From the IMG/VR virus record IMGVR_UViG_3300036845_000374, positions 1 to 41,659 of that record: DNA of 41,659 bases. One strand, written 5' to 3'. The first letter of the stretch is position 1, and each line of letters begins with the position of its first letter. Under the pieces are notes generated by a model. It did not search any database. It worked only from the letters and a program-made list of their open reading frames with translations, and had not been told where the DNA came from. Source of the DNA: a virus. Shown here one piece after another: positions 2,679-37,649 of this stretch. Made by a program: the position numbers and the translations under genes.

Positions 2679-5113
2679 TGGCATATCGGCTGGCGTACAG
2701 CGACTACAGCACGACCACCACCGGCCCGCCCGATCCGGAGCGGTGGGTCGGACCGCCGGGTCCGCCGGGAGTCCAGGGGCCGATCGGGCCGGTCGGGCCT
2801 CCCGGACCCAACGTGGTGCCATCGGACACGGTGCCGCTCATGGACGGCGCCGGTGCCGCCGGAACCGCCACCACGCAGTCTCGCGGCGATCACACGCACC
2901 CGAGCGATACCTCGCGACTGCCCCTGACAGGGGGCACACTGACCGGCCGCCTGACGCTGGCCACCGGCCCGACCGTGGCCCTGGACGCCGCGACCAAAGG
3001 CTACGTCGATACGACGGCGGCGAATTACCTGCCGCTCGTGGGCGGCAGCGTCACCGGAGCCACCACGTTCTCAGGTGCCGGGACCGGTCTGGCTGTCACC
3101 AATGCCGCGACGGTCGGTGGCACACTGGGCGTCACAGGCGCGCTGACGGCGCCGGTCTCGACCTCCACCGCCATTGCCACGGGCGGCACCACCGCGCGCA
3201 CCGTGGCGGCGCGACTGGTCGATACCATCAACGTTCTCGATATGGGCGTCAGTGGCGCCGCGGTGGACCGGACGGGCGTTACCGATGCCAGCGGCGCGAT
3301 CCAGGCGGCAATCAACCTGGCCCTGGCAGGCGCGCCACAGAAGACCGTCTATATCCCGGCTGGCACCTATCTGATGTCGGCACGAGCCTTGATTGTCGCC
3401 AACACCAACGGACTGACGATCAGGGGTGATCCTGGCGAGACAAAATTGCTGCTCGATCCGGTCAGCAACGCCAACGCGGCGCTTATTGGCGCGCAGGGTA
3501 ACACGTCGAATATCACGATTGAAAACATGATATTCGACGGCAATACCGGCAACAATACGACAAATATGTTTTCGTTGGTCGGTCCTGCCTCGCCATCGCT
3601 GAACTGGACGTTTCGCAACTGCACGTTTCAGAATTCAAACGCAACGGCGATTAACTCAGCCGGGGAAGCACTTATCGCCGTTACTCTCAACGCCACGGCC
3701 AATGCCGGTCAGGCAGTGCTATCGGTCGCCAGCGTACCCGCCACGGTCAAACCCGGTGCCTTTGTTGTCGGCAGCGGTGCCGCCGATCCGAATATGTACG
3801 TGATCAGCACGACCGCGACCACGATCACCCTCAACCGCAACTTGCCCGACACCGCGCTGAGCGGCGCCGGGGTCAGTTTTTGCCGTGCTTTCACCACCAA
3901 TGCCGATGCGCTGTACGGCGCCACGGTGTTGACCGCCGCGGATACCTCCGGGCTGTCGGTCGGTCAGTCGCTCGCCTGTCCGCCCACGTCGGGTGCGCTC
4001 CAGACGGCAACGCGGATCACCGCGATCACCACCAATGTGTCGGTCACTATCGACAAACCTCTACTGTGCAAACTGCCGTCCGGTAGCAACGTGGCCGCGG
4101 CAGGCGGCCATACCAATTTGCGGGTCGAAAGCTGCAAATTCCTCAATATCGGTCAGATGCAGATCGCCAACCTGGCACGCAGCTACAACACGGTCGGCGC
4201 GCAAGGCCCCGGCACCACGCTTACCTTACGTTGTCGTTCCGCCTCCGGTGGCAGCCAGGCGGGCGTATTCCCCGGTCAGAAGATCGGCCCCGCGCCGCCC
4301 GCCAACGTGCCGCCAGTGGGCACCCTGATCGTCGATGGCGTCACCGTGAACAACGCGGCCAACACCTTCACCGTGACACTGGCCTCACCATTGACCGGAA
4401 CAGTTCCCGATAACACGGCGATCCCGTTCATGGTTTCGAATGGCGGCCAGGGGTATGGCGTGTGGCTTGGCTATGGTGCGCCGTTCGCCAACATCAACGC
4501 GAAGTTTCTGAACAATTACTTCGAGCACACCTGGGCTGCCTGTATCTGGGCGGTCGGCAGCGGTGGTGCGTTATTATCAGGCAATCATTATGTGCAGGAT
4601 CAGATGCAGTATCGCGATCCGGTGATCGCGGCTTCACCGTGCATAAACCTTCAATCATCAATGAATGCACGAGTGATCGGTGACATAGGGACAGGTGCCT
4701 CCGGCTGCGGCATCGAGGCTGAACACCCGATGGGTCTCATTATCTCGGGTGGCGAGTTCTCGCGCAACGGTGCCTGCGGCATCGGCATCAACGGTGGCAT
4801 GAACGTCTCCATCACGGGAGTGATCTGCAACAACAATGGCCAGTATCGCAACATCCCCTTCGTGCAGGACTACGAGACCACGTTCAAAGCCGTAGGTGGG
4901 ATCGTCATATCAGGGTCCGCCACGACAGGGCAGCCAGGGACGGCGACAAACTTCAATATTGGCCGCGTCATCGTCTCGGATACCCAACTGGTGCCGACGC
5001 AGACCTACGGCATCCGTAACGGTTATACCGCCGGCGCGTTCGTGAACTTAAACCTGACTGATATCATCGGCAGCGGTAACATCACCGCGCTGGTCGATCC
5101 GGCGTTTCCCTGA
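2678..5113 (+). CDS. Tail fibre/tailspike with collagen-like segment and pectate-lyase-type beta-helix
   Basis: An 811-residue protein. Residues 25-45 form seven Gly-X-Y triplets rich in Gly-Pro-Pro, a collagen-like stalk. Two phage tail repeats (L-P-L-T-G-G-T type, each with A-T-K-G-Y-V-D nearby) follow at about 85-135. A pectate-lyase-superfamily entry motif starts near 190 (V-L-D-M-G-V-S-G, then D-A-S-G-A-I-Q-A-A-I and Y-I-P-A-G-T-Y), and the rest is a right-handed beta-helix with N-N/G-N turns. The start is the ATG in TGATG at 2676-2680; the longer open frame upstream only shadows the gp4-like gene. Bases 3420-3680 look more AT-rich than their surroundings, consistent with a recently acquired receptor-binding segment. 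Likely binds or degrades host surface glycan. Confidence 0.85.
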   Translation: MAYRLAYSDYSTTTTGPPDPERWVGPPGPPGVQGPIGPVGPPGPNVVPSDTVPLMDGAGAAGTATTQSRGDHTHPSDTSRLPLTGGTLTGRLTLATGPTVALDAATKGYVDTTAANYLPLVGGSVTGATTFSGAGTGLAVTNAATVGGTLGVTGALTAPVSTSTAIATGGTTARTVAARLVDTINVLDMGVSGAAVDRTGVTDASGAIQAAINLALAGAPQKTVYIPAGTYLMSARALIVANTNGLTIRGDPGETKLLLDPVSNANAALIGAQGNTSNITIENMIFDGNTGNNTTNMFSLVGPASPSLNWTFRNCTFQNSNATAINSAGEALIAVTLNATANAGQAVLSVASVPATVKPGAFVVGSGAADPNMYVISTTATTITLNRNLPDTALSGAGVSFCRAFTTNADALYGATVLTAADTSGLSVGQSLACPPTSGALQTATRITAITTNVSVTIDKPLLCKLPSGSNVAAAGGHTNLRVESCKFLNIGQMQIANLARSYNTVGAQGPGTTLTLRCRSASGGSQAGVFPGQKIGPAPPANVPPVGTLIVDGVTVNNAANTFTVTLASPLTGTVPDNTAIPFMVSNGGQGYGVWLGYGAPFANINAKFLNNYFEHTWAACIWAVGSGGALLSGNHYVQDQMQYRDPVIAASPCINLQSSMNARVIGDIGTGASGCGIEAEHPMGLIISGGEFSRNGACGIGINGGMNVSITGVICNNNGQYRNIPFVQDYETTFKAVGGIVISGSATTGQPGTATNFNIGRVIVSDTQLVPTQTYGIRNGYTAGAFVNLNLTDIIGSGNITALVDPAFP

Positions 5114-7062
5114 TGACCGCCTTCACCGCATTCCCGATCGCCAACGTCAACATTCCGGCACTGCCGGACCTCGGCGCCGTCTCCGATGCCGTGCTCCTCA
5201 TCGCCGAACGCTCCGGGACCGGACGCGTCACCGCCGCCTCGCTGCGGGACTACGTCTCCGCCTCGTTCGGCATCTCGTCCGGCGGCCCGTTCCTGTCGCT
5301 GTCTGGCGGCACCATGGCGGGGCCGCTGTATCTGGCGGCGGACCCAGGCGCGCCCGCCCAGGCGGCGACGAAGGGTTATGTCGACGCCGTCGTGGGAACC
5401 GGCGGCGGCCCGTTCCTGCCGCTGACCGGGGGCACGGTTTCCGGCGCGACGACGTTCTCGGCCACCGGCATGGCGCTCACCGTCAGCAACAACGCCTCCG
5501 TCCGCGGCACCGCCAGCCTGGGCGGCGGCTCAACCAATTATGTCAATGTGACAGGAGCCGCCGCCAATCCGACGATCCAGGTGGCCGGCACCGGTAACGG
5601 CACCATGCTGCTGCGCGGACTGGGAACCGGCGGCATCAATCTCGGCTCGACGACATCCGGCAACGTGCTGCAACTGCTGCCGGCGGCGTCGAACACCGAT
5701 GCGTTTACCATGTTCCAGCCGACGGCACTCGGCCAGCCGGGTATCCTCGACATGCTACAGGCGGGAACCGGCGGGATTTACATCCGCTCGTTCCTCAGCA
5801 TCGGCAAGCCGCTGACGTTGAACAATCAGGCCAGCACGGTCTGGTTGGCGGCGGGGAACAACCTGTCCGGCACGACGAACACCAACTACGTTTCGTTGTT
5901 TACGTTCGGATCGAACAGCGACGCCGTCCTTGCCAATGGCGGCGCCGGCTCGGTCGTTGTCGTGGACGCGACACACCGGATGGCTACGGGCTGGCAAGGC
6001 GGCCGGGTTGGTCTCAACGCATCCCTTTTCGACACCGGCCCGGCCACGGCGCACGCGCACAATATCATGGTCGCGGTCAACGGGCTTTCGAGCGCCAACT
6101 ATAATCAAGGCGGCGTGGCCGCCGGGTTTGGTGTGTCACAGTTCGGCATGGGCGGCAATTTCGGCGGTGTGTTCGGCATCGGACTGGCGGCGGGCGCCAC
6201 CTACATGCGCGGCGGCACCGGGATCGAGATTGATGTTCACAATCTCGCCGGGTCGAGTAATTCATCTACCGTCGGCATGCAGATCGTCCACGACGGTGCC
6301 CATGCGGTACAGGGCATCAACCTCGATGTCGCGTTCCGTATCGGTGATCAGTCAACCGCGCTGATCGGCTGGAAGAACCTGATTATTCTTGGATCGTATG
6401 ACTCGAAATGGCCGTGCGATCCAAACGGTTACCTGTTGCAGATCCAGCCTTCCTACAGTGGCGCGGCGGCGTCGGCAGCGGGCGGCATCGATCTTCAACA
6501 GTTCGTGCCATCCGGCACCGGGCCGGAAGGCGGCGGCTTCGCGTTGCGGACGAGCGGCACATTCGGTGCCACCGCGATCGATAGCTCGGGCTTCGTCAAG
6601 GTCGGCACCGGGCTCATCAGCGCAAGCGCGGCGGGCCTGATCGTTGACGTTCCGCTCTGGACGCTGAGCGGCACGCCGACGATCGGCGCGGGCGGGACCG
6701 GCTTCTCGGCGGGCGATATCGTCGCCGATGGCCTCGGCAATATCTTCTCGGTCGGTGCCGTGACGGCCGGCGCGGTCACCGCCGTCACCGTGCGCCAGCG
6801 TGGCGAGGGACGCGCGGCGGATGCGTCCGGAACCATCACCTGCACGACGCGCTCGCGGAACGGTACTTCGCTCGGCACGGGCCTGACATTGGTCGAGGCA
6901 TGGGCGCAATCGACGCGGACGCTCTCGCTGCAACCATCGGGCGGGGCCATCGTCATGCCGCTGCTGACGAACGCCGCCAACGACGCGGCGGCCGCGGGCG
7001 CGGGCGTCGCGGTGGGGCAGGTCTACAGAAATGGAAGCGCGGTCATGCAGAGGGTAGCGTGA
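5113..7062 (+). CDS. Tail fibre/tailspike protein with repeated P-L-T-G-G modules
   Basis: A 649-residue fibre. Its first about 50 residues (T-A-F-P-I-A-N-V-N-I-P-A-L-P-D-L, then E-R-S-G-T-G-R-V-T-A-A-S-L-R) closely match the start of the protein at 7777, so both probably use the same particle-attachment domain. Two G-G-P-F-L-x-L-x-G-G-T repeats follow at about 57-115, then a long Gly/Ser/Thr-rich beta-structured shaft and a C-terminal region ending in a Q-V-Y-R-N-G-S motif typical of fibre tips. ATG overlaps the previous TGA (5111-5115). No catalytic motif seen; role inferred as receptor binding. Confidence 0.8.
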   Translation: MTAFTAFPIANVNIPALPDLGAVSDAVLLIAERSGTGRVTAASLRDYVSASFGISSGGPFLSLSGGTMAGPLYLAADPGAPAQAATKGYVDAVVGTGGGPFLPLTGGTVSGATTFSATGMALTVSNNASVRGTASLGGGSTNYVNVTGAAANPTIQVAGTGNGTMLLRGLGTGGINLGSTTSGNVLQLLPAASNTDAFTMFQPTALGQPGILDMLQAGTGGIYIRSFLSIGKPLTLNNQASTVWLAAGNNLSGTTNTNYVSLFTFGSNSDAVLANGGAGSVVVVDATHRMATGWQGGRVGLNASLFDTGPATAHAHNIMVAVNGLSSANYNQGGVAAGFGVSQFGMGGNFGGVFGIGLAAGATYMRGGTGIEIDVHNLAGSSNSSTVGMQIVHDGAHAVQGINLDVAFRIGDQSTALIGWKNLIILGSYDSKWPCDPNGYLLQIQPSYSGAAASAAGGIDLQQFVPSGTGPEGGGFALRTSGTFGATAIDSSGFVKVGTGLISASAAGLIVDVPLWTLSGTPTIGAGGTGFSAGDIVADGLGNIFSVGAVTAGAVTAVTVRQRGEGRAADASGTITCTTRSRNGTSLGTGLTLVEAWAQSTRTLSLQPSGGAIVMPLLTNAANDAAAAGAGVAVGQVYRNGSAVMQRVA

Positions 7063-32485: not shown

Positions 32486-32688
32486 TCCGTTGCGTGTTTC
32501 GATGACCAGAACATAGCGTTACGCCCGGTGCGAAACCAGTGTCATGAACGCATGGCAGGCATGTTTAGCCCGGTGCGAAACTACCCGGCCACTCGTTCAA
32601 ACGAGGGTTTGAAGACACATCCGAGGTTTGTAAACGCAACTAACACTACAGCCGCAGGCGTATCACGCATGTCAGTTGCAAATACGTT
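32486..32688. promoter_or_regulatory. Divergent control region with 14-bp direct repeats
   Basis: GCCCGGTGCGAAAC is present at 32523-32536 and 32568-32581, 45 bases apart (about four helical turns). CTCGTT-CA-AACGAG near 32592 is a short dyad, and GCGTATCA (32658-32665) faces TGATACGC (32690-32697) across 24 bases, the latter overlapping the next ATG. Leftward, TATGTT near 32510 could be a -10. No coding frame is credible here. These look like binding sites for one or more regulators. Confidence 0.5.
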
Positions 32689-32937
32689 ATGATACGCGAT
32701 TGCGAGCGCGAGCGCATGGAAGCGGCGTTGCACAGCATCGTGCGCTGGTCCGAGGCTTACCCGCTGTCAGTGTTCCCCGAGCCGGATGCCGCGTATCTGG
32801 CGCGGGCGCATGCTGTCCTGACGGCCAATGGCATGACGCTGGACCGGCTGTCGGCCCATGCCATGCGCCACGCCGTCGAGGGCGTAGGCAAGATCGCCAG
32901 GGATGCGTTGGGCATCTCCGATGCGGCTACGTTATGA
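32689..32937 (+). CDS. Hypothetical protein upstream of methyltransferase
   Basis: An 82-residue helical protein (M-E-A-A-L-H-S-I-V-R-W-S-E-A-Y-P, L-A-R-A-H-A-V-L-T-A-N-G-M-T-L-D-R-L). No ribosome-binding site is obvious before the ATG at 32689; the ATG at 32716 is an alternative. Its stop overlaps the methyltransferase ATG as ATGA (32934-32937). The 15 bases around its start are almost repeated at the methyltransferase start. Confidence 0.5.
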   Translation: MIRDCERERMEAALHSIVRWSEAYPLSVFPEPDAAYLARAHAVLTANGMTLDRLSAHAMRHAVEGVGKIARDALGISDAATL

Positions 32938-34106
32938 TCCGCCTGCTTCAGGGCGACGTTCGCGAGCAGCTTGCGGTGCTGGTGCCGGGCAGCGTGCATT
33001 GCGTTGTGACCAGCCCGCCGTATTGGGGCTTGCGCGATTATGGCACCGGCACTTGGGAAGGCGGTGAGGCGGGGTGTGATCACAAGCGTGCGAAGCAGGC
33101 TCCGCGTGAGTTCGAGTGCGGTCGGAAGGACGGCACGGGAATGCGGTCGTGTTTGAGTTGGACGGAGCGCGACGGCACGACGTTTGGGGGCATCTGCGGC
33201 AAGTGCGGCGCGCGTCGCATCGATCGCCAGATCGGCCTTGAGGCGACGCCGGACGAGTTCCTGGCGGTGATGGTCGAGGTGTTCAGGGGCGTTCGGCGTG
33301 TGTTGCGCGACGATGGAACTTGCTTTGTCAACCTCGGCGACGGTCACACGAACAAGCAGCTTCAGATGATGCCCGCGCGGCTCGCCATAGCCCTCCAGGC
33401 TGACGGCTGGTGGCTGCGCAGCCAGATGCCGTGGGTCAAGCGGTCGGCGATGCCCGAGAGCGTGACGGATCGTCCGGCGAGCGCGGTGGAATACGTCTTC
33501 CTGCTGACGAAGTCGGCGCGGTATTTCTTCGATGCTGAGGCGGTGAAGCGGGCGCCATCCGGCAACGCTCATGCGCAAGGCAACGGCTACGGCCAGAAAG
33601 CGGACGTGCCTGGAAACGGCACCCGGGCCAACAGCAGCGCCAAGGCTGCGATGCACAACGCCACGGCCAGCGATCTGCCGTCCTCCCGCAACTTCCGCAA
33701 CAGCGACCTGTTCTACGACAGCCTGACCGCGCCGCACGGCCTGATCAGCGACCAGGACGGCCACCCTCTGGCGCTGGACGTGAACCCGAGCGGCTACGCC
33801 AACGCGCATTTCGCGACGTTCAGCACAAAGCTGGTGGAACCCTTGATACGTGCCGGGTGTCCGCCCGGCGGGACTGTGCTTGATCCATTCTGTGGGGCTG
33901 CCACGACCTGTCTTGTCGCGGATCGCCTTGGCCGTGATGCGATCGGCATCGATCTCAACCCGGTTTATTTGGAGATGAGCCTCGACCGGCTCGTTTCAGA
34001 CGGCCCGTTGTTCGCGCAAGTTGGAGTGCGAGGCGACGTTTCTCTTCCATCTCGGCACGGTGTTCGCGCAGATGCGATGCCCTTGTTTGAAGGGACAGGT
34101 TCGTGA
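32934..34106 (+). CDS. Beta-class DNA methyltransferase (N4-cytosine/N6-adenine type), 3' end altered
   Basis: A 390-residue methyltransferase. Motif IV T-S-P-P-Y-W (25-30) comes first and the AdoMet-binding motif I D-P-F-C-G-A-A-T-T-C (near 320) comes last, the beta-class order; S-P-P-Y favours N4-cytosine. A Cys/His-rich insertion (C-D-H, C-G-K-C-G) lies at about 45-105. It probably protects the phage from restriction. The open frame upstream of 32934 is a shadow. The natural C-terminus (D-G-P-L-F-A-Q) is followed by about 29 residues read antisense to an HNH gene, so the original end has been replaced. Confidence 0.85.
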   Translation: MIRLLQGDVREQLAVLVPGSVHCVVTSPPYWGLRDYGTGTWEGGEAGCDHKRAKQAPREFECGRKDGTGMRSCLSWTERDGTTFGGICGKCGARRIDRQIGLEATPDEFLAVMVEVFRGVRRVLRDDGTCFVNLGDGHTNKQLQMMPARLAIALQADGWWLRSQMPWVKRSAMPESVTDRPASAVEYVFLLTKSARYFFDAEAVKRAPSGNAHAQGNGYGQKADVPGNGTRANSSAKAAMHNATASDLPSSRNFRNSDLFYDSLTAPHGLISDQDGHPLALDVNPSGYANAHFATFSTKLVEPLIRAGCPPGGTVLDPFCGAATTCLVADRLGRDAIGIDLNPVYLEMSLDRLVSDGPLFAQVGVRGDVSLPSRHGVRADAMPLFEGTGS

Positions 34107-34578
34107 TGTTGTCATTCAGCGGATCGCGGTCCTCGTGATGTATGACCATCCCCCTCGGGACAGGCCCGTGAGCCGCCTGCCAGACGACCAAAGCACGCAG
34201 GTGCCAACTGTTGGGTTCCGCGACTTTAACGAAGGCTCGTTGTCCACCGGTGCGCCTGAATTTCCTGATGCGCTCGGTGCCGATGGGCAGATGGTTGATC
34301 GGCTGGACGCCTGCGCGAAACTCAGTGGCGGGGGAGAAGTGGATGCCTCGCATTCCGGTGTTCCAGGGGCGTTGACCCTTCACGAAGCTGTTGGTTGGGA
34401 TATGGCCCGCTCTGTGCCGGTTCCCGGTGAGGAGTTGGCTGCGATACGTCGAACGGCACACGACACCGCACGTTCTGAGGATCTTGGCCTTGGATGGCGT
34501 GGTCTCGAACGGCATGGCGCAGACGGCACACGGGACGAGGATGCGGTTTTTGGCTGTCATGGCGGCATTATATCGCAT
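33955..34578 (-). CDS. HNH homing endonuclease inserted at methyltransferase 3' end
   Basis: A 207-residue HNH endonuclease on the minus strand. A Cys-rich ribbon (C-A-V-C, then R-T-C-G-V-V-C) is near the N-terminus; the core is W-H-L-R-A-L-V-V-W-Q-A-A-H-G-P-V, then I-H-H-E-D-R-D-P-L-N-D-N-I-T-N-L and H-L-R-E-H. The last about 50 codons overlap the methyltransferase gene in the opposite direction. The ATG at 34560 is a possible alternative start. Free-standing HNH genes move by cutting empty alleles. This one differs in sequence from the two in the leftward operon. Confidence 0.85.
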   Translation of the reverse strand: MRYNAAMTAKNRILVPCAVCAMPFETTPSKAKILRTCGVVCRSTYRSQLLTGNRHRAGHIPTNSFVKGQRPWNTGMRGIHFSPATEFRAGVQPINHLPIGTERIRKFRRTGGQRAFVKVAEPNSWHLRALVVWQAAHGPVPRGMVIHHEDRDPLNDNITNLSLQTRASHLREHRAEMEEKRRLALQLARTTGRLKRAGRGSSPNKPG

Positions 34579-35153: not shown

Positions 35154-35203
35154 CCTCCCGCTGCCTCATCTGCCGGCACCGAATGAAACGGCGGCGCCAT
35201 GAG
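35150..35203 (+). CDS. 17-residue mini-ORF linking two genes
   Basis: ATG 35150 overlaps the previous stop (ATGA) and the frame ends at TGA 35201-35203, overlapping the terminase ATG by three bases. The peptide is Cys/Arg-rich (S-R-C-L-I-C-R-H-R-M-K-R-R-R-H). It bridges 46 bases that would otherwise be untranslated, so it may serve only to carry ribosomes to the terminase start, which lacks a strong ribosome-binding site. Confidence 0.3.
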
Positions 35204-37649
35204 TGAATCCATCGCCGATGACCGCCCGACCGCATGGAGTCCGCAGCCGGGGCCGCAGACCGCGTTCGTCGGCTGCCCGGTATTCGAGATCTTCTTCGGC
35301 GGAGCCCGAGGTGGCGGTAAGTCCTGGGGAGTTATAGGTGACTGGGCGTTACACAGCGACCGGTATGGATCGGACGCTGTTGGCCTCATGGTCCGACGCA
35401 CACGTGTTGAACTATTAGACCTGTTCGAGCAGGCCAGGAGCGTATATGCGAAGATTGGCGCGACAACGACATATTCGCCCATGCGGATCACCATGCCGAA
35501 TGGCGCGCGGCTGACGTTCGCGTATCTGGAGCGTGATGCTGACGCGGATCAATACCAAGGCCACGGATACTGTGTGGCGGTTGGCACGGGCATCCGTATG
35601 GCAGATGGCGGGCTCAAGCCGATCGAGGCTATTCAGGCGGGAGAGATGGTGGCGACGCTTGAGGGGCCGCGCCGCGTGGTTGCCACTACCAGGCCTTACC
35701 TAGCCGCTTGTGTCCGCGTTTCGGTCCGGGACGCAGGCGGGGGGTTGCTGGGATACCAGGACCACCCTGTTTGGCATCCTGTCTTGACCACCGCTGGATT
35801 GATTTCTGGACACAATTCTCAGACACGCCATAGCGTCGTCCGACTTCGGCAATCGGAATCCGTTCGATGCGGCGCAACCGGAGCACTTCCTCACGGTGGG
35901 GGTCAAGAACTCCCGGGCTGGCTCGCTTGGTCAGAAGATGGTCGAAGCGATTATAAAGCGTCTGAGGATGGACGCCCAGGATGCGGGCGGCTTCCATCGT
36001 GGTGCGTCCCTGTAGTGCTTCACTCGCCGTCCGTTCTGTCAGTCCGGCGACGCGCCCACGATATCCCCGAGACAGCCAGAGAATGCCGTTCTCACGGCAT
36101 ATTTGGGAGAGCGCTCCATAGCTTATCCCAAGCTCTGCCATGGGGATTGACTGGTCTGCGGCTACTTGCCGAACGCGTTCGATCAATGCTGGATCGCGCC
36201 GTCCCTTCCCATGCCAGTGGGCTCTCATATGCTGGGAATGGTCGGCGAACAGTTCCAGATTTGACATATCGTTATCATTCCGGACGTGGTTCCGATGATG
36301 GACTCGTTCGCTCCGCTCAAGATATCGCCCCAGGTGCATCTCCATTATCAGGCGATGCTGGTGGACCATGCCGTAGAGCGCAAAGCGATGGGTTGGACAC
36401 CATTCGTAGATATAGCCCCTCACAATTGTCGTGGGTGCATCCTTATACCGGCGAGGAACGAGATCTTGTGGAATCGGTAATTTGTGGAACGATGGAATAT
36501 CTTGGACACGTCGACGCATTGGTTGCTGATCTCACTGTAGAAGGTGCCAATCATTACATCAGCGCGACCGGCCTCATCAACAAGAATACGAGGCTATATG
36601 TGGAGGAATGCGGCACGTTCCCGTCCCCGGCGCCGATTTTCAAGCTCATGGCGACTTTGCGGTCTGGCGCCGGTGTGCCGGTTGGTATCCGCCTGACGGG
36701 AAACCCAGGTGGTAGCGGGCATCAATGGGTGAAGGCCCGTTACATTGACGACGCGCCGCGTGGTTGGAAGATCATCGCTGATAAAGACACTGGTTTGGAG
36801 CGGATTTATATTCCATCCAGGGTGACGGATAACGCCTATCTTGGAGAGGATTATATCCAGCGCCTGAAGGCGTCCGGCTCGCCGGAACTGGTCAGGGCCT
36901 GGCTTTATGGTGACTTTTCCGTTGTCGCCGGCGCGTTCTTCAGCGAGTGGGACAGTGCCCGGCACGTGGTGTCTCCTCGCGTGCTTCCTGAGCACTGGGC
37001 GCGGTTCCGCTCGTTCGACTGGGGCAGCGCGCGGCCGTTCGCCTGTCAGTGGTGGGCGGTGAGCGACGGATCGATGCCAGAGTTCGCGCGCGGCGCGCTC
37101 ATTAACTACCGGGAATACTACGGCATGAAGCCGGGCGAGCCGAACGTCGGGTTGCGGATGACGGCTGAGCAGGTAGCGGATGCGATCAAGGCGTTGGAGC
37201 GGGATGATCCGACGCCGACGGGCGTGATCACCGGCGTGGCTGATCCGGCGATCTTCGCCGAGGACGGGGGGCCGAGCATCGCGCAGCGCATGGCGTTGCG
37301 CCGGGTGATCTGGCGGCCGGCGGACAACAAGCGGGTGCCCGGGCGTGGCGCGATGGGCGGATGGGATCAGGTGCGGGCGAGGTTGGTAGGCGACGGCGAT
37401 GGCCGCCCGATGGTCGTGTTCTTCGCCACGAGCACGAACCTCATTCGCACGTTGCCGGCGTTGCAGCACGACCCGAGCCGGGCGGAGGATCTGCAAACCG
37501 AGTCCGAGGACCATTGCGCTGACGCAACTAGATACGGACTTATGAGCAGGCCCTACGTCAGAGACGCAACGGTCGTGCCGATCCGCGACAGCTGGAACGA
37601 TGCCTTTAACCGCCGCGACACCGAAACGCGGGACTGGAGGGTGGCATGA
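35199..37649 (+). CDS. terL: Large terminase subunit, interrupted by an intein
   Basis: An 816-residue precursor; splicing out residues 125-463 leaves 477, a normal large-terminase length. ATPase: Walker A G-A-R-G-G-G-K-S (35-42); Walker B L-Y-V-E-E immediately after the intein; coupling motif T-G-N-P-G-G. Nuclease acidic residues lie in F-D-W-G-S, G-V-A-D-P-A and D-A-T-R-Y-G-L near the end. It packages DNA through the portal. The intein is inserted between G-H-G-Y and T-R-L-Y-V-E-E, so precursor cannot hydrolyse ATP normally until spliced. The next gene overlaps by four bases. Confidence 0.9.
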   Translation: MSESIADDRPTAWSPQPGPQTAFVGCPVFEIFFGGARGGGKSWGVIGDWALHSDRYGSDAVGLMVRRTRVELLDLFEQARSVYAKIGATTTYSPMRITMPNGARLTFAYLERDADADQYQGHGYCVAVGTGIRMADGGLKPIEAIQAGEMVATLEGPRRVVATTRPYLAACVRVSVRDAGGGLLGYQDHPVWHPVLTTAGLISGHNSQTRHSVVRLRQSESVRCGATGALPHGGGQELPGWLAWSEDGRSDYKASEDGRPGCGRLPSWCVPVVLHSPSVLSVRRRAHDIPETARECRSHGIFGRALHSLSQALPWGLTGLRLLAERVRSMLDRAVPSHASGLSYAGNGRRTVPDLTYRYHSGRGSDDGLVRSAQDIAPGASPLSGDAGGPCRRAQSDGLDTIRRYSPSQLSWVHPYTGEERDLVESVICGTMEYLGHVDALVADLTVEGANHYISATGLINKNTRLYVEECGTFPSPAPIFKLMATLRSGAGVPVGIRLTGNPGGSGHQWVKARYIDDAPRGWKIIADKDTGLERIYIPSRVTDNAYLGEDYIQRLKASGSPELVRAWLYGDFSVVAGAFFSEWDSARHVVSPRVLPEHWARFRSFDWGSARPFACQWWAVSDGSMPEFARGALINYREYYGMKPGEPNVGLRMTAEQVADAIKALERDDPTPTGVITGVADPAIFAEDGGPSIAQRMALRRVIWRPADNKRVPGRGAMGGWDQVRARLVGDGDGRPMVVFFATSTNLIRTLPALQHDPSRAEDLQTESEDHCADATRYGLMSRPYVRDATVVPIRDSWNDAFNRRDTETRDWRVA
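35571..36587 (+). mobile_element. Intein in terminase (339 residues), splicing blocks present, no in-frame endonuclease
   Basis: Intein codons run from TGT 35571 (Cys1) to AAT 36585-36587 (terminal Asn), followed by extein Thr. Block A is C-V-A-V-G-T-G-I-R-M-A-D-G with P-I-E-A-I-Q-A-G-E-M; block B is G-Y-Q-D-H-P-V-W-H-P-V-L with its His; block F is L-V-A-D-L-T-V-E-G-A-N-H-Y-I-S; block G is G-L-I-N-K-N. The penultimate residue is Lys in place of the usual His. Residues 83 to about 300 of the intein look like antisense translation of an HNH gene, with no LAGLIDADG or HNH motif in this frame. Boundaries are from motif alignment by eye. Confidence 0.85.
35686..36519 (-). CDS. HNH endonuclease encoded antisense within the terminase intein
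   Basis: A 277-residue protein on the minus strand. The HNH core lies at residues 34-101: G-Y-I-Y-E-W-C-P-T-H, H-Q-H-R-L-I-M-E-M-H-L-G-R-Y-L, then V-H-H-R-N-H and N-D-M-S-N-L-E-L-F-A, close to the HNH_3 pattern. Helix-turn-helix-like modules follow (A-S-E-A-L-Q-G-R-T-T-M-E-A-A-R-I-L-G-V, and I-P-I-A-E-V-G-R-R-Y-G-V-S) up to about 250, with a basic end. Both ends overlap intein splicing segments on the other strand: it ends opposite intein residue 39, before block B, and starts opposite residue 317, just before block F. Its mRNA would be antisense to terminase. It would be the homing enzyme of this intein. Confidence 0.85.
   Translation of the reverse strand: MRRRVQDIPSFHKLPIPQDLVPRRYKDAPTTIVRGYIYEWCPTHRFALYGMVHQHRLIMEMHLGRYLERSERVHHRNHVRNDNDMSNLELFADHSQHMRAHWHGKGRRDPALIERVRQVAADQSIPMAELGISYGALSQICRENGILWLSRGYRGRVAGLTERTASEALQGRTTMEAARILGVHPQTLYNRFDHLLTKRASPGVLDPHREEVLRLRRIERIPIAEVGRRYGVSENCVQKSIQRWSRQDAKQGGPGIPATPRLRPGPKRGHKRLGKAW

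Follow-up and report, generated by a model that had tools for sequence, protein, structure and literature searches.

The terminase gene of the window encloses an intein and an HNH gene on the opposite strand

The window, by which we mean the whole stretch of DNA that was analysed, is a viral contig of 41,659 bases from IMG/VR and not a finished isolate genome. The outer parts of an 816-codon frame on its plus strand match the PHROG terminase large subunit (TerL; 6.5e-33). These outer parts, the exteins, are 47-48% identical to the TerL proteins of Pseudanabaena phage Pam5 and of MW202489, and when joined (124 + 353 = 477 amino acids) they align with both of these intein-free proteins without a gap, as expected from the junction placed here by the initial annotation. 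The positions of all features are collected in Table 1.

Table 1. Features of the TerL locus in the window
Feature	Position	Strand	Evidence or remark
TerL gene including the intein	35199..37649	+	816-codon open frame, no stop
N-extein, 124 aa, end ...QYQGHGY	35199..35570	+	Gapless junction compared to intein-free TerL
Intein, 339 aa, C1 to N339	35571..36587	+	Predicted Hint fold (AlphaFold, Foldseek); profile match to intein set
Block A (CVAVGTGIRMADG), catalytic Cys1	35571..35609	+	C1 invariant in 50 relatives; pLDDT 96-98
HNH endonuclease gene, 277 aa, wholly inside the intein	35686..36519	-	Pfam; purifying selection in relatives
Block B (LGYQDHPVWHPV), His69	35751..35786	+	H69 invariant in 50 relatives
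Helix-turn-helix DNA-binding region, HNH residues about 160-245	35785..36042	-	Pfam HTH_23 5e-10, HTH_28 1e-9
Linker, approx. residues 80-288, antisense to the HNH core	35808..36434	+	pLDDT about 40-60 over most
HNH_3 nuclease motif, HNH residues 53-91	36247..36363	-	Pfam 4e-8
Block F (VADLTVEGANHYI)	36522..36560	+	D320, N327, H328 and Y329 nearly invariant
Possible HNH promoter opposite blocks F/G (TTGTTGATG...TGA-TGTAAT)	36553..36583	-	31 nt before ATG; weak in the window
Block G (ATGLINKN) and Thr nucleophile at +1	36564..36590	+	N339 invariant
C-extein, 353 aa, start TRLYVEE (Walker B region)	36588..37646	+	Junction alignment

The insert between the exteins is an intein. Across 50 relatives the residues C1, T29, G32, H69, H290-P291-Y292 and N339 are invariant, and at +1 the window has T and the listed relatives T, S or C. 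Usual inteins have TxxH in block B and a block G that ends in HN. In the window, block B reads PVWHP, that is PxxH with Pro replacing the Thr, and block G ends in KN with Lys replacing the penultimate His; both forms are typical for the family. The initial annotation had recognized blocks A, B, F and G in the open TerL frame, and its coordinates, frame and blocks stand with these two motifs corrected. Pfam matches of the window's own intein to Hint families stayed below the cut-off; profile comparison with hhalign gave 99.3% for this intein against inteins inserted in the P-loop of TerL, one of which passes the cut-off of Pfam Intein_splicing. The AlphaFold model predicts a confident Hint fold (pLDDT 94-98 for residues 1 to about 70 and about 300 to 339) interrupted by a linker of low confidence (mostly 40-60 between residues about 80 and 280), and nearly all Foldseek matches of this model, including the top ones, were inteins or Hint domains. 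A Pfam search of the window intein detected no in-frame endonuclease family, in line with the initial reading. Rfam returned no match at the TerL insert up to E = 1, and a group I intron, or RNA intron, was ruled out by the lack of a ribozyme core up to that value.

The gene on the complementary strand was recognized by Pfam through its HNH_3 motif and two helix-turn-helix families (Table 1), so the proposal of an HNH_3-type endonuclease with DNA-binding modules was confirmed. Residues H75, N83, N87 and H97 of the HNH protein are invariant in 53 relatives, and its AlphaFold model reaches a pLDDT of 89, with helices of the HTH region above 85. A fold search with the model gave weak matches, and no sequence relative was found in the PDB. 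The C-terminal part of the HNH gene is antisense to block B, and the third base of each minus codon lies opposite the second base of a plus codon, as had been described; this one reading phase is common to all antisense-HNH loci. A second, stand-alone HNH_3 gene lies upstream of TerL in the window (33955-34578, minus strand, 207 aa, 8e-13), convergent with a DNA methyltransferase ORF (32676-34106) whose end it overlaps.

The reverse-strand layout is a family trait

Searching viral contigs with the window HNH returned ten relatives of 39-50% identity, every one of which (10/10) is encoded antisense within a TerL intein, and an HNH-profile scan yielded 57 loci with the antisense layout, the window counted. 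The inteins occupy three sites in TerL: b1, the site of the window, 7 residues N-terminal of the Walker B acidic pair; b2, closer to the pair; and the P-loop. With a profile of the P-loop HNH, 79 of the 80 matches listed were antisense, the one exception lying at a contig end, and the total of P-loop antisense loci is probably larger than the 80 listed. Profiles of the intein ends, which used no HNH sequence and were seeded with members that have an antisense HNH, recovered 82 distinct inteins. Eighty of them had an antisense HNH, the other two were HNH-less mini-inteins of 147 and 178 aa, and an in-frame HNH was found in none of the 82. These searches demonstrate that the layout is a general trait of the family, present in well over a hundred phage sequences.

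The whole 339-aa intein found no match in viral contigs, presumably because the linker is unconserved, and tblastn with the whole inteins of four relatives found none in annotated phages. In cultured Streptococcus and Stenotrophomonas phages, the HNH matches lay outside terminase genes, and a scan of genome contigs gave a single HNH locus, without an antisense terminase frame. In two loci (L051 and L052), the HNH lacks an internal segment and the intein frame is still open.

The plus frame avoids stops and the strand under selection switches at the HNH boundaries

Synonymous reshuffling of the window HNH (1000 reshuffles) gave a mean of 5.1 stops in the plus frame and no stop-free outcome (0/1000). 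Across 45 non-redundant loci we counted 0 plus-frame stops compared to 326.8 expected from synonymous codon shuffles, and across the 80 P-loop loci listed 0 compared to 507.5. The 57-locus set was defined by requiring an antisense ORF, which makes zero stops automatic there, so the argument is carried by the improbability at each locus and by the stand-alone control, in which 24 HNH relatives outside such inteins showed 177 stops in the same phase against 203 expected. A chance open frame is excluded. The linkers were more hydrophilic than the shuffles (z -1.5), and the amino-acid choice of the HNH may be shaped by the plus strand. We also considered that only this phase permits stop avoidance and ruled this out, as the codon-on-codon phase can also be stop-free. 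Separately, stop-free plus-frame coding was possible for all antisense HNH sequences compared to 21% of stand-alone relatives.

Selection was compared in both frames across homologues, using 21 relatives whose 345-aa inteins align without gaps and whose flanks are complete; the relatives in this comparison have a median identity of about 81%. Diversity peaks at plus codon base 3 in the exteins and intein ends. In the overlap, the fastest position is plus base 2, the HNH wobble (0.311), and the slowest is plus base 3, which is HNH base 2 (0.085). Within the overlap the HNH has a dN/dS-like ratio of 0.23; the two Hint/intein ends have ratios of 0.22 and 0.09. The HNH and the Hint ends are under purifying selection, and the strand of selection flips at the HNH boundaries. 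Overlap changes that are nonsynonymous on the plus strand and silent in the HNH occur at a rate equal to that of silent changes in the exteins, and the plus-strand linker in the relatives is essentially free except for stop avoidance. The substitution rates thus bear out the suggestion that the linker is whatever the HNH permits, minus stops. The accompanying claim of the initial annotation, that both proteins are strongly constrained, is incorrect outside short stretches. Around HPYT (residues about 288-303), where the HNH fold begins on the other strand, each of the three codon positions changes slowly, which suggests that both proteins are constrained at this place.

Cultured phages and an E. 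coli prophage carry the same layout

One TerL region is common to Pectobacterium phages Ymer, Abuela, Sabo, Koroua, Amona, Taid and Pappous and to Dickeya phage Setonix, with DNA identities of 91-100% over at least 98% of its length. The five of these eight phages that we looked at in detail have a 288-aa intein between GFG and TGKS of the P-loop, with a 232-aa HNH antisense in it, and the exact empty P-loop site is present in Klebsiella and E. coli phages. In the packaging region of Ymer the sole other annotated terminase is 164 aa long, and since the P-loop is split and the other terminase is so short, an infectious phage would need excision of the intein. The inference of splicing is strongest in Ymer. 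The TerL genes of Ymer and Sabo (L218 and L221) differ at 15 positions, all in the HNH overlap, as if only the overlap had been exchanged.

In the complete chromosome of E. coli MEI003, a prophage TerL frame of 802 codons contains the intein and an antisense HNH, and the prophage of E. coli 167 has an empty TerL site. At least some annotation pipelines garble the layout, an error that the present data expose: in MEI003 the HNH was called and TerL was given as an incomplete pseudogene without its N-terminus, and in the Pectobacterium phages TerL is annotated as "hypothetical protein" and the HNH is unannotated. With cultured hosts, splicing and homing can be tested directly. Near the C-terminus of the MEI003 prophage TerL (L385), a stretch of about 29 aa (VVVNSSNPPVKDRVNSMNAMFCNANGERR) occurs twice in tandem.

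A possible HNH promoter on the strand facing blocks F and G

Many members have a sigma-70-like promoter (TGATATAAT opposite the NHYI codons), in most of them 20-60 nt before the HNH start. Compared to synonymous shuffles, the promoter motif scored z 0.92 for family-level codon choice and a scrambled motif 0.66, and the real motif beat 95.6% of scrambled motifs. Since the scrambled motif also scores, compositional bias explains part of the signal. A strict promoter scan of the window found none, and HNH expression is the weakest link of the explanation given below.

Empty sites, horizontal movement and origin

A 108-aa query across the empty junction had matches in at least 80 viral contigs, with identities of 75-84% and, in nearly all cases, coverage of the entire query. 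In some pairs of loci the intein ends are 82-86% and the HNH 80-82% identical compared to 56-61% for the adjacent exteins, a pattern that fits horizontal movement of intein and HNH relative to the exteins. The b1 members make up one clade and the P-loop members another (support 0.96) in a provisional HNH-core tree, which rests on a short domain, and stand-alone HNHs fall between the two clades, so the HNH may, provisionally, have been captured more than once. A broader generalization is possible, though we hold it to be rather doubtful: reverse-strand inteins might make up a general class with at least two origins on different backbones; in this class the reading phase would let synonymous changes remove stops and tune the linker, and the F/G coding sequence would serve both as splice site and as HNH promoter.

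Proposed mechanism and alternative explanations

We consider it likely, with a probability of roughly 0.87, that the locus holds a mobile TerL intein with its homing endonuclease gene on the reverse strand of the endonuclease insertion site. The plus strand would be translated into a TerL precursor, the two Hint halves would fold together while the roughly 200-residue stretch dictated by the antisense gene loops out, and excision of the intein would leave a TerL of 477 aa. The minus strand would be separately transcribed and translated into the HNH/HTH endonuclease, which would cut intein-free TerL alleles at the insertion site, with repair then copying the intein and the HNH gene together. 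The shared sequence is governed by the HNH frame. The plus frame adds mainly one rule, no stops, and it is mostly the HNH wobble base, opposite plus codon base 2, that satisfies this rule. The empty-site junctions, the antisense HNH in 80 of 82 inteins, the strand-specific selection, the Hint fold and the horizontal movement all fit the bipartite element that the initial annotation had put forward.

A mini-intein could instead have acquired a free-standing HNH that serves packaging, like HK97 gp74, and not homing, the antisense position being incidental. HNH proteins near terminases can aid cos cleavage (PMC10448857), and the window has its second HNH gene upstream at 33955-34578. However, the HNH accompanies the intein in 80/82 cases, and other phages have the pair at a different site. 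Among the terminase and lysis genes shown for the E. coli 167 prophage, which is intein-free, none is annotated as an HNH. The HTH tail and the transfer pattern suit homing; we regard a packaging role as unlikely. Still less probable is a non-splicing insertion kept in TerL with a hidden HNH. Such an insertion would resemble the ShiLan elements, which also have an out-of-frame HNH within an open insertion (PMC11855218), but the ends of the present insert form a Hint domain, with invariant C1, H69 and N339 and T, S or C at +1, and are under purifying selection, and inserts retained in the P-loop would destroy the ATPase motif.

The damage to the HNH in L051 and L052 would suit a dead element, in which HNH and intein are relics with frames open by chance or through recent arrival. 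The 0 stops compared to 327 and, in the 80 P-loop loci listed, 508 expected, and the purifying selection on the HNH and Hint ends among relatives of about 81% median identity, make this a very remote explanation. Lastly, given that the window is an IMG/VR contig and not a finished isolate genome, an assembly artefact or an inversion of an ordinary in-frame HNH intein might be suspected. This has a negligible probability, as the layout is repeated in many independent contigs, in deposited phage genomes and in one complete E. coli chromosome, and no in-frame counterpart occurs among the 82 inteins; the initial annotation had named homologues with the HNH in frame on the plus strand, as a sign of inversion error or misassembly, among the findings that would speak against its proposal.

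Relation to known systems

A mobile intein with a reverse-strand endonuclease would be like canonical mobile inteins (e.g., PI-SceI) in its Hint fold, its splice residues, a conserved catalytic motif as its site, the empty alleles in relatives and the usual nested position of the endonuclease. It is unlike them in that the endonuclease is a separate protein from the opposite strand and the in-frame linker has no detectable endonuclease. Dassa et al. reportedly described, in 2009, fractured genes with split inteins and a free-standing endonuclease between the halves. These share with the present loci a separate endonuclease protein between intein halves, but in the loci described here neither TerL nor the intein is broken, and the endonuclease gene overlaps both of them in antisense. 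Some group I introns carry antisense homing endonuclease genes, so that, as here, the homing gene is opposite in sense to the host gene. A group I intron is, however, an RNA intron, and therefore the host frame need not stay open through the endonuclease gene, whereas here the host frame is open through the HNH and no RNA family was detected. A 2025 preprint by Gosselin, Arsenault and Gogarten is said to treat actinobacteriophage inteins of non-canonical architecture, and its title suggests unusual layouts. No description of an intein whose endonuclease lies on the reverse strand was found in a full-text literature search of partial coverage.

Among published cases, the ShiLan domain comes closest: an HNH that lies out of frame on the same strand of a dispensable phage methylase gene, with no splicing domain and in an insertion thought to be retained (PMC11855218). 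Common to both are an HNH gene hidden in an open insertion within a phage gene and two overlapping frames; the present HNH differs in being antisense and in the presence of a Hint domain. The ShiLan methylase region was among the tblastn matches of a P-loop antisense HNH. The loci described here would represent a further way to build a mobile intein, with the endonuclease overprinted on the reverse strand and neither fused to nor placed beside the splicing domain. Well over a hundred sequences have this overprinted design, and the phage gene that holds it is essential. The loci also amount to an extensive natural collection of overlapping antisense genes, in which the strand of selection switches at mapped boundaries.

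Observations at individual loci

Several loci have further inserts or atypical ends. The TerL gene of L003 (3920-8296, minus strand) apparently has four intein-like inserts, at the P-loop, at b1 with an antisense HNH, at GSGH^C and at EDH^C, and the TerL of L011 has at least two. At L029 (1812-5123, minus strand) the b1 intein ends atypically (FDSRQERSGITPGPVSAN^T), and another intein lies downstream in the same TerL. Related inteins in L160, L161, L162 and L166 apparently end in Gln and not in Asn (e.g., ISSQ^T and IQAQ^T). L053 has a sense, out-of-frame HNH (3587-4219, plus strand) within a glycosyltransferase-like frame (2818-5280, plus strand), an arrangement like that of ShiLan.
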